From an uncultured Candidatus Saccharibacteria bacterium (GTDB lineage Bacteria; Patescibacteriota; Saccharimonadia; Saccharimonadales; Saccharimonadaceae): a stretch of DNA of 64,000 nt. The stretch is from positions 1 to 64,000 of the forward strand of contig CANBER010000002.1 of NCBI GenBank assembly GCA_947367795.1, given 5' to 3'. How positions within the stretch are numbered: the stretch's first letter is position 1; every line of letters begins with the position of its first letter. The notes below the pieces were generated by a model. That model was not told where the DNA came from. It did not search any database and worked only from the letters and a program-made list of their open reading frames with translations. A program made the translations under genes and the position numbers. Shown here one piece after another: positions 1-23,640 of the stretch.

Positions 1-322
1 CTTCGTACCTACACGATTGGTTATTTAGGCTATCAAAAACTACTCCTGTAGTAGGCTTTGATAGGAATGATATTTTGGCACCTCGGGCATCACTCAATGC
101 GACAGATCTGCTCACCAAAACTTGTAGGTCATGTTTGGTCATAAAAGGAACTATCCGCTTATACAAAAAGCGACACTGCGAGGTGTCTTACTACCATTCA
201 TAACCACTGTGCAATGCATTGATTACTTACGCGATACCGCTTAATCGCAACACATTGCAAGCAGTGTTATAATGAGCGTTCAAAAACGGTAGTTATATTG
301 ACAGTAAGACAATTTCATCGTA
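1..322 (-). ncRNA. Structured RNA or leader, copy 1 (runs off left edge)
   Basis: Read leftward from a promoter with -35 TTGCCA (340-345) and -10 TACGAT (317-322), spacer 17. Predicted start is near 310. The first 150 nt can fold into one long arm: GTCTTAC near the 5' end pairs with GTAAGAC (+ strand 304-310 with 185-191), a bulged middle stem follows, and an apical stem carries the conserved GCGG...CGC. A hairpin GACAC/GTGTC with GCUUUUU follows (164-187). A block at about 127-157 is nearly identical to copy 2 near 23285-23314. Copy 2 leads into a FISUMP surface-protein gene, so a similar gene may lie left of the window; this is inference. Confidence 0.6.
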
Positions 323-346
323 TCGCGCTTAAGCAAAAGTGGCAAG

Positions 347-21503: not shown

Positions 21504-23159
21504 TTACTTGGCGAGACAACGCACATTCATCGCGGACGTGCGGTGGTTACCGCCGTTTGGAATAATTGCATCTGCTCCAGTAAGATAGAAGCGGTTGTTA
21601 GTACTTCCAACAGTCCCGGCGGTTGAGGATTCCAACAACCCGTCTCGTCCGTATGAAGATACGGCGGAAGCGGTTGGGTGGATGATACCAGCCCGAACAA
21701 TATAGAGTGGTTTCATGGTGATGTTTTGGTTGTTGCCGTTGCCGAGGTCTTTGGTAGTGTTCTCGGCATAATGTGCTAGGCTGTTTGACTCGGTAAGAGT
21801 GAACTTATAATCGTAAGCAGTGAAAAGACGGTAGAAACTGTCCTCACGGTCATAGATCACGCCGGTCGATGGATTAGCGCCGGTGACGGGCAATTTCCAT
21901 CCTTTGGGGCAAATTGAGCCCGGCGTTTCTCGATCGTTGTATCCATCTGGAGAATCCGGGGAGCTCATGACATCCGGACCACCGTTGCCAGCCATGGCAG
22001 CATTAAACTGGTAGTAATTGCCGACGGTGTAGTGAGCGTCATAGCTGAAATTTTCCCGGTCGATTGCAGTCCAGCTTTCACTGGGGGCGCTGGGGTCGGT
22101 AGAGTAGGCACCGAGGGTTGCTTGCCAGCCGCTGACGTCTTGCAATTCTGAACACTCTGCTAGGCTTTCGCCGAGAGTAACTCGACAGCCGGTTTCGCTA
22201 ATTTTGGCAGGAGAGGCTAATACGTAGTCACCAAAATTCCAGGATAAAGTATAGTTGGTCGAACTTGCGTCGATCTGATCCGTGCCATGATAGGTACTAC
22301 TCGGTACCACCCACTCACTTGTAATGCTGGTGTCGGATGGGGTGAGGGTTTTGCCAGCGACAAGGTCAAAGGCGAGATTTTGAGTCATCCAGCAATTACC
22401 ATCGGCGAGTTTGGCAACCCAATAGGATTTGCCGTCACGAGTGTCGATGAGGCGTTTGGTACTGTCTTCACGAGAGTTAGTGCAAATATCTGGCGTCATG
22501 TCCTGCATGTAGGTGAGCTGGGTGAGGCTGGTGATGGCAATAGGATTGGCAACTGCAGAAAGCACAACCGAGTTACGATAAGCACCGGCAGGAAGAGTAG
22601 TATCGATGGCGGTACCAAAAGTTAAAGTATAAGTATCCGTGGCATTTTCTGCGCCGGTGGTAGTGCTGGCTTCGGGGAGTTTGGTAGAGGTAATGGGGAC
22701 GGCAGAGAAGTCGGTGCCAGGGGTGGAGCCTTTGCTCAGATTATATCCCCAAGTGTTGCTCGTGAAATTATTATTACTCGTGATAGCAGAAATCTGAGCG
22801 GAACTAGTACCGTCGTCGCTGATGAGGGCATTAGTGTTTCCCTGCATGCCAAGGAAGATACCATAACCGGAACTGTTGTTGGTGGAGACTTTGATGGTAC
22901 TACTGACGGTGCTGAGTTTGGTCTCACTGGTGGGATTAATGTCGAGCGCAACGTGATCATCGAGACTAATAGAAATCACGGGATGGGCCCAGACAGAGAA
23001 TTCTTGGGATGCACGTGAAGTATGCTCCTCGGCGTTAGCGGTACTAGTGATGCTGGGGAAGATGGTTAGAAGGCCGATGAGACCGAGCAAGCCGATACTT
23101 CCCCATCCTATGGTGCGCAGGATGTGAGTTTGATGGTTGATAATGTGAGTTTTTGTCAC
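21504..23159 (-). CDS. Secreted FISUMP-domain surface protein
   Basis: Exported protein of 551 residues. The GTG at 23159 is chosen because GGAGG lies 8 nt upstream; an in-frame TTG at 23174 precedes that site. A signal peptide follows (hydrophobic IGLLGLIGLLTIF, cleavage near NAEE). Residues about 40-190 are a Thr/Ser-rich beta domain. The C-terminal 350 residues are a Fibrobacter-type major paralogous (FISUMP) domain: LIDTRDGKSYWVAKLADG, CWMTQNL, CPKGWKLP and the closing NVRCLAK. FISUMP domains are related to C-type-lectin/FGE folds and tend to be multi-copy in CPR bacteria. Preceded by about 340 nt of conserved structured leader. Likely role: surface display or binding. Confidence 0.85.
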   Translation of the reverse strand: MTKTHIINHQTHILRTIGWGSIGLLGLIGLLTIFPSITSTANAEEHTSRASQEFSVWAHPVISISLDDHVALDINPTSETKLSTVSSTIKVSTNNSSGYGIFLGMQGNTNALISDDGTSSAQISAITSNNNFTSNTWGYNLSKGSTPGTDFSAVPITSTKLPEASTTTGAENATDTYTLTFGTAIDTTLPAGAYRNSVVLSAVANPIAITSLTQLTYMQDMTPDICTNSREDSTKRLIDTRDGKSYWVAKLADGNCWMTQNLAFDLVAGKTLTPSDTSITSEWVVPSSTYHGTDQIDASSTNYTLSWNFGDYVLASPAKISETGCRVTLGESLAECSELQDVSGWQATLGAYSTDPSAPSESWTAIDRENFSYDAHYTVGNYYQFNAAMAGNGGPDVMSSPDSPDGYNDRETPGSICPKGWKLPVTGANPSTGVIYDREDSFYRLFTAYDYKFTLTESNSLAHYAENTTKDLGNGNNQNITMKPLYIVRAGIIHPTASAVSSYGRDGLLESSTAGTVGSTNNRFYLTGADAIIPNGGNHRTSAMNVRCLAK

Positions 23160-23505
23160 CTCTTTTACCTCCAAAAGTGGTTAGGACGTCAAAAAGTAAG
23201 CAGGCGCGTACAGTTTGACGAGTTATTACTTTCCACCTTGGGTGTCGCTAGGCTTACAAATGGCTGATCTATCTCCAAACGATAAGGTCATGTTTGGTCA
23301 GAAAAGGAACTATCATGCCAAAGTGCTTATGCAAAAAGCGACACCGCAAGGTGTCTACTCCATTCGCAACCTATACCCGACACATGTTCGAGAAAGCTAC
23401 TTATGCGGTGCCGCTTAAAGCATCTCCAACATGCAGATTAGGGTATAGGTATTGATGGCATAAATTACTACCAAAAACTGGTCGCGATATAAAGTAGACA
23501 ATTTC
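23160..23505 (-). ncRNA. Structured RNA or leader, copy 2 (upstream of FISUMP gene)
   Basis: Promoter TTGTCA (23529-23534), 17 nt, TACAAT (23506-23511), start near 23499. GTCTAC at the 5' end pairs with GTAGAC (+ strand 23494-23499 with 23353-23358); ACCTATACCC pairs with GGGTATAGGT; GCATGTT with AACATG; the apical AAGCGG..CCGC stem follows. A hairpin GACACC-TTGC-GGTGTC plus GCUUUUUG (23332-23355) could end a 168-nt RNA. Downstream, AGCGACACCCAAGGTG can pair back to the same hairpin strand, so termination and read-through into the surface gene may compete. Confidence 0.65.
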
Positions 23506-23640
23506 ATTGTATCACACTCATGCTAATTTGACAAAAGATTTGTCCGAGAAAATTTATAAAGGTCAAAGTGCGGAATCTGAAAAAAAAATTGACATCTCAA
23601 AAGTATGATATAATTGATCCAATCTAAGTGGAGTGAAGAC

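Follow-up and report, generated by a model that had tools for sequence, protein, structure and literature searches.

The window analysed here, the first 64,000 nucleotides of contig CANBER010000002.1 from an uncultured Candidatus Saccharibacteria bacterium (contig C2, taken from the contig's first base, of an 860 kb genome in 38 contigs), encodes two copies of a structured RNA element, both on the minus strand. By its layout the element is a leader RNA with its own promoter, consisting of a long hairpin (P1-P2-P3) and a terminator-like hairpin (T) with a U5 tract, followed by the ribosome site of a gene for a secreted protein. By base complementarity, T and a long pseudoknot (S2) are mutually exclusive alternative folds. 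We favour, as rather probable, the reading that this is a cis-acting, riboswitch-like transcription-attenuation leader in which S2 would allow readthrough and T would terminate, and it would probably act as an on/off switch for the cell surface. The RNA family, P1–P3, the exclusivity of S2 and T, the promoter position, the U-tract and the association with genes are read from the sequence.

The original prediction, made from the letters of the window, had placed a structured RNA at both loci, and the RNA is real: its folding is far from chance, with whole-leader z-scores against dinucleotide shuffles of −6.63 for copy 2 (0 of 100) and −2.84 for copy 1. Both of its two copies stand, but the count does not, since covariance-model searches found six in this genome and many more elsewhere. 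The alternative pairing of T and S2, which would make the element a switch, is an addition to that prediction.

Evidence for the two exclusive folds comes from many copies, in metagenome-assembled genomes; E-values are rough, and the promoter, S2 and hydrophobicity statistics pool related copies. In nearly every copy, a strand in the apical loop (S2a) pairs over 10–17 bp with the 3' arm of T and the start of the U-tract, a pairing that is not part of any of our covariance models. Across the 84 copies of our first set the S2 duplex averages −22.5 kcal/mol with each copy's own arm versus −19.2 with permuted arms (standard deviation 0.21; best of 5000, −20.06), and in 58 further matches to one model (R2) it averages −21.6 versus −14.8 kcal/mol (standard deviation 0.41). 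In register, 829 of 840 S2 cells pair in place, versus at most 435 when slid by 1–3 positions. The non-Watson-Crick cells on the element strand (about 100 of the 840) are G-U or U-G with almost no A-C, and the unit is therefore RNA from this strand only.

Changes in S2a are matched in both arms of T. Relative to the baseline, S2a GGCACC with T arms GACACC..GGUGUC, four loci (L201, L202, L183 and L206) have S2a GGCGACUC with arms GACGACC/GGGUCGUC; three (L213, L219 and L223) have GGCAACUCC with GACAACCC/GGGGUUGUC; L198 has GGACGCC with GACGCC/GGCGUC; and L236 has GGGCAGCUACG with GACAGUC/GGCUGUC. The CACC of T's 5' arm is kept in 84/84 first-set copies, and in the wider set pairs of T change from A-U to G-C and from C-G to A-U. 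Because T and S2 use the same bases, selection has maintained both folds, and the two cannot coexist.

The hairpin P1-P2-P3 is similarly supported. MAFFT alignments A2 and A3 of very diverse copies failed to place P3, so we built subfamily models (R1, from ten copies, and R2, for a second subfamily) and then a joint model (R3) from 55 diverse copies. RNAalifold on all 84 first-set copies recovered only P3 and T, since the alignment misplaces P1 and P2 and S2 forms a pseudoknot; we counted pairs by register instead. For the P1+P2+P3+S2 state in a MAFFT alignment of 15 class-B copies, 90.4% of cells are paired, versus at most 47.1% when slid, and 18 pairs show double changes versus a shuffled mean of 9.1 (0/500). 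For P1–P3 in the 55 copies, 95.3% of cells are paired (at most 46.5% when slid), with 432 double-change cells versus 117 shuffled, in an alignment that was fitted to the model and hence leans toward the structure. The original prediction had argued for compensatory change from the closing stems GTCTAC/GTAGAC and GTCTTAC/GTAAGAC; these pair as claimed, and with covariance models built and related genomes searched the covariation in more copies is overwhelming. The conserved apical GCGG..CGC hairpin that it drew is better explained as the S2a strand pairing with T's 3' arm.

At the 5' end, the gap between a −10 box and P1's first base downstream is 6 or 7 nt in 121 of 142 copies (104 at 6 nt), versus 23% of control positions that meet the same −10 criterion at any gap; given this fixed distance, P1's first G is probably +1. 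The matched promoters proposed earlier, TTGTCA/TACAAT and TTGCCA/TACGAT with 17-nt spacers, were both located, and a promoter-like scan by itself found one site for copy 2 where 1.6 were expected, not above chance. The sequence GAAATTGTC, earlier taken as the RNA's 5' terminus, does not hold as RNA because its GAAATT is promoter, falling between the −10 box and +1. Domain I then runs through P1, P2, a variable P3 with an apical loop around AAGCGGCACCGCAUAAG, the 3' strands, GAAUGG, UUAGAC and T-GCUUUUUG. T has 6 bp and a mean of −7.6 kcal/mol, and the 9 nt after it hold 4–7 thymines in 84/84 copies (6–7 in 77/84); in copy 2 the expected terminator-like hairpin lies at 23355-23332 and is the only terminator-like site scored in that region. 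The distance from U-tract to start codon has a median of 42 nt, and copy 2 has a leader of 340 nt, beginning with +1 (about 23499) and reaching the GTG start (23159). The order of promoter, structured domain, terminator-like hairpin with U-tract, ribosome site and gene is that of an attenuator, and two mutually exclusive helices, one holding the terminator arm, are both kept in evolution.

We suggest the following mechanism. Transcription would begin at P1's first base, and the nascent RNA would fold into the P1-P2-P3 hairpin with S2a displayed in its apical loop. On leaving the polymerase, T's 3' arm would have two exclusive partners: in the OFF state it would pair with its own 5' arm, forming T beside the U-tract and stopping transcription, and in the ON state S2a would capture it, the long pseudoknot would block T, and polymerase would read into the surface-protein gene. 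P1 and S2 would jointly oppose T, because T needs the GAC that closes P1, and an input altering access to S2a or the stability of P1 would set the OFF/ON ratio. Termination by T, the role of S2 as the ON state and the existence of an input are our inferences. T as an intrinsic terminator and S2 as an antiterminating pseudoknot would follow the pattern of the fluoride and ZTP riboswitches (PMC11077080, PMC10085676).

Several observations weigh against this attenuation reading. The stability of S2 (−22 kcal/mol, no pseudoknot penalty being applied) far exceeds that of T (−7.6); to be labile, the switch would have to be controlled kinetically or by a factor masking S2a. T has an A-C mismatch despite a good S2 in several copies (L069, L127, L215, L218), and a single base in copy 1 (GCAGTG) makes S2 as well as T weaker. 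The subfamilies do not all share a strongly conserved unpaired pocket, which weakens the case for a single small-molecule ligand; the conserved unpaired bases UAA-n-CA after S2a, and GAAUGG, occur in part of the family only. Attenuation by a leader peptide, a separate reading, was rejected: inspection by eye showed no conserved short open reading frame.

The same switch might instead work with opposite polarity, with the S2 helix (A-tract, GC-rich stem, U-tract) as the terminator stem and T as its weaker competitor. S2a often opens with a run of A residues pairing into the U-tract, like A-tract/stem/U-tract terminators, one or two non-U bases separate T from the U-run, and T is imperfect in some subfamilies while S2 is good. 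However, T would itself terminate, being a local hairpin of 6 bp immediately upstream of the U-tract, and would therefore make a poor antiterminator; S2 must bridge a folded domain and close a loop of some 50–80 nt; and every first-set copy keeps the 5' arm of T. We consider this polarity unlikely, and continue to favour T as the terminator.

The genes after the element are mostly predicted to be secreted or membrane proteins. Scored crudely by whether a hydrophobic stretch occurs among the N-terminal 110 residues, 91 of the 122 distinct proteins encoded downstream qualify versus 16 of 50 window genes. Copy 2 heads a FISUMP surface gene, as the original prediction had it: the protein has a signal peptide and a FISUMP-like domain, although its match to TIGR02145 (E 1.1e-8) is below the curated cut-off. 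The genes after another copy in this genome (L002, on contig C6) and after L016 also encode signal-peptide proteins with a FISUMP-like stretch, and by eye the copies on contigs C37 (L004) and C27 (L238) have similar downstream proteins. Almost all of the copies inspected in two genomes, G056 and G161, head paralogous surface proteins of about 490–590 aa. Other targets include a type IV secretion system pilin (L085, L086), a DUF4352 protein (L174), a lysozyme/amidase (L035) and an inner-membrane protein of YgjV type (L118); a minority are DNA methylases by Pfam (L084, L108, L184). By eye, L221 precedes a DNA methyltransferase or restriction-modification gene, and L250 precedes an apparently soluble protein of flavin/pyridoxamine-oxidase type rather than a surface protein.

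This gene bias supports the earlier proposal of a leader that gates surface-protein expression. The original prediction had left open a leader or a free RNA; we favour the leader because the U-tract lies so shortly before a start codon with a Shine-Dalgarno site. A free, stable RNA of roughly 130–170 nt, ending at the U-tract and acting in trans or without a role at the next gene, would have its 5' end sequestered in P1 and its 3' U-tail in S2, and would fit with some RNAs being 93–100% identical though the next gene differs. It is nonetheless quite unlikely, as the element is nearly always shortly upstream of a gene with a ribosome site, its bias toward surface and membrane genes is strong, and the copies inspected in G056 and G161 stand almost without exception before paralogous surface proteins.

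Some members of the family, among them most surface-gene copies in this genome, carry a domain II after T. It contains the conserved block GATAGTTCCTTTT.TGACCAAACATGACC as well as the strand D2 (AGCGACACCCAAGGTG), and downstream of it lie a second hairpin, with UUUUUGAY, and then the ribosome site. D2 occurs in about 20 first-set leaders, mainly those of surface genes (for example both window copies, L117, L001, L081, L032, L016, L130, L018 and L023), and is complementary to nearly all of T over about 16–24 bp; its helix appears in the minimum-free-energy fold of the copy 2 leader. Judged by this complementarity, D2 can be a third alternative partner for T's bases in many surface-gene leaders. 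Because it would form only once polymerase has passed T, we read it as a later step, such as locking, processing or translation control. By eye, a CCUCC between T and D2 in L081, L117 and L130 could mask the gene's GGAGG. The domain II block GUUCCUU..GACCAAACAUGACCUUA is nearly invariant (both window copies, L238) and may be a contact for a protein or the ribosome.

The long D2-T duplexes, together with a +1 that is base-paired in P1, would also suit a 5' pseudoknot that stabilises or processes the mRNA without regulated termination, D2 providing a long duplex for RNase III in surface-gene leaders. Such a role is very unlikely: the U-tract is conserved past the paired positions, and a static stabiliser would not need T and S2 to be exclusive and both maintained.

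RNA modules can be 88–100% identical between genera or families while the next genes are diverged or unrelated (L201/L202/L183/L206, L098/L103/L104/L106 and L215/L216). Between L201 and L202, from different families, the RNA is 100% identical over 123 nt and the genes 71% identical; L215 and L216 have 100% identical RNAs, after which the sequences diverge; and in the g11 genomes, RNAs 93–98% identical stand before different genes. Identical RNAs with differing flanks suggest module exchange, a subfamily-specific partner, or both. A DNA-level element (an inverted repeat, recombination site or mobile cassette) would account for near-identical modules before different genes across families and for copies often lying at contig ends, but is scarcely credible given the G-U/U-G cells of S2 on this strand, with almost no A-C, and the fixed promoter and +1.

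Covariance models found well over 150 copies across the order Saccharimonadales. BLAST detected relatives in 16 of 99 same-genus genomes, the source genome included; R1 matched 23/174 same-genus, 36/295 family and 12/294 order genomes; R2 matched 57/392 genomes and 31/156 genera of the order sample; and R3 matched 56/164 same-genus genomes, with up to 15 copies per genome. Of the six copies in the source genome, R1 found four, and the two others are on C27 (L238) and C24 (L250, G000:C24:7842-7995). R3 also matched G587 and G798, genomes whose assigned place is outside the order and class, and S2 is intact in each; G587 may be misplaced, because its class holds only that genome in this set. A few weak matches are false: L217, where matches on both strands overlap, and L208 are without S2. 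The domain II motif was found in a same-genus genome (G043) and in record CANDYU010000010.1 (uncultured Candidatus Saccharibacteria); a scan of genome contigs gave 13 matches, 12 in unrelated phyla that we judged to be chance and one in Saccharibacteria.

Phages as carriers were rejected. The pattern WAGACACCTYGCGGTGTCG gave 27 matches in IMG/VR, of which 26 are one conserved marine phage gene stretch without a U-tract, and these 26 gave no convincing match to the covariance models (one at E 0.041). The sequence AAGACACCTTGCGGTGTCG in L140-L166 (IMG/VR) is a conserved stretch of one marine phage gene family, a chance match to the hairpin. Copies are often found no more than a few hundred bases from a contig end, and it is usually the gene side that is truncated (window copy 1, G000:C37, L116, L117, L119, L127, L128, L131), which suggests that the surface genes downstream are repeated or vary between strains. 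Position 1 of the window is the start of the contig, so the gene of copy 1 is missing.

The original prediction could not match the element to 6S, tmRNA, RNase P, SRP, T-box or a known riboswitch, and no Rfam family matched it: copy 2 had no covariance-model match at E <= 5 among the 4227 models of Rfam 15, no family at gathering cut-offs lay over the element in the window and 18 other loci, and in the Rfam scans none of the crcB (fluoride), ZTP/pfl and T-box models matched it. A search of the literature on Saccharibacteria and Patescibacteria leader RNAs, small RNAs or FISUMP regulation, in which few subscription papers were covered, gave no description of the element, and Saccharibacteria are unnamed in the main text of a microbiome-wide RNA screen. 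We conclude that the element would work like a pseudoknot/terminator riboswitch yet belongs to no tested family, and was previously uncatalogued.

T-box leaders place mutually exclusive terminator and antiterminator structures upstream of genes. The element differs in that its putative antiterminator strand lies in an apical loop; Rfam gave no match, and we saw neither a T-box sequence nor a tRNA-binding stem. The fluoride aptamer is small, with a conserved pocket, whereas the element's domain is 115–190 nt, with a pseudoknot of 10–17 bp, freely variable sequence and no Rfam match. The likeness to the fluoride (crcB) transcriptional riboswitch is that of a pseudoknot/terminator switch, the fluoride system's ligand enhancing expression (PMC11077080, PMC8752731). 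The ZTP/pfl riboswitch is a transcriptional ON switch in which strand displacement decides between aptamer and terminator (PMC10085676, PMC7337938); the element has no pfl model match and other stems, and its targets are surface proteins, not purine or one-carbon genes. LOOT RNA (RF03000), also a structured RNA in Saccharimonadales, lies about 1.1 kb after one element copy (L174:2743-2860, 74 bits); it differs in fold and sequence, and was rejected as the element's identity because it is a separate RNA.

Table 1. Coordinates of the two element copies in the window (all on the minus strand).
Copy	Feature	Coordinates	Details
2	Promoter	23506..23534	-35 TTGTCA 23534-23529; 17-nt spacer; -10 TACAAT 23511-23506
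2	Domain I	23332..23499	P1-P2-P3 hairpin, T and U-tract; R1 match 118 bits; inferred +1 at 23499
2	P1 5' strand	23494..23499	GUCUAC; partner 23358-23353
2	P2 5' strand	23480..23487	UCGCGACC; partner 23371-23364
2	S2a, apical-loop strand	23404..23416	AAGCGGCACCGCA; 13 bp complementary to 23348-23336
2	P2 3' strand	23364..23371	GGUUGCGA; followed by conserved AUGG (family consensus GAAUGG)
2	P1 3' strand	23353..23358	GUAGAC; GAC common to T's 5' arm
2	Hairpin T	23340..23355	GACACC-UUGC-GGUGUC; terminator-like, 6 pairs then GCTTTTTG
2	S2b	23336..23348	UGCGGUGUCGCUU; shared strand, partners S2a, T's 5' arm or D2
2	U-tract	23332..23339	GCUUUUUG
2	Domain II block	23283..23314	GATAGTTCCTTTTCTGACCAAACATGACCTTA; present in part of family only
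2	D2	23233..23249	AGCGACACCCAAGGUGG; complementary to nearly all of T; -29.8 kcal/mol, z -7.0 vs shuffles
2	Second hairpin	23188..23219	GUCAAA...UUUUUGAC; upstream of ribosome site; similar hairpins in related leaders (by eye)
2	Shine-Dalgarno site	23168..23172	GGAGG
2	Putatively regulated gene	21504..23159	551-aa secreted protein; signal peptide; FISUMP-like domain; GTG start 23159
1	Promoter	317..345	TTGCCA; 17 nt; TACGAT
1	Domain I	164..310	R1 123 bits; R3 73 bits
1	P1	310-304/191-185	
1	S2a	242-230	
1	T	187-172	
1	S2b	180-168	
1	Domain II block	125..155	
1	D2	79..94	AGUGAUGCCCGAGGUG
1	Second hairpin	30..64	CUAUCAAA...UUUUUGAUAG; gene beyond cut by contig end

The mechanisms of differentiation between attached and swarmer cells in Patescibacteria were described as completely unknown in a 2024 perspective (PMC11665869). 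The element is a specific regulatory RNA candidate in this setting, with at most 15 copies per genome, heading largely paralogous surface proteins in the inspected genomes. A tentative extension is that it represents a new class of epibiont RNA switch, which would sense a single signal shared by all copies, be it host contact, nutrient or life-cycle state, and choose the transcribed members of a surface family copy by copy, through a strand with three partners: S2a upstream, T locally and D2 downstream. The element would offer a handle on control of the epibiont surface and a new pseudoknot/terminator switch for dissection, and it might serve Saccharibacteria genetics as a natural control element.
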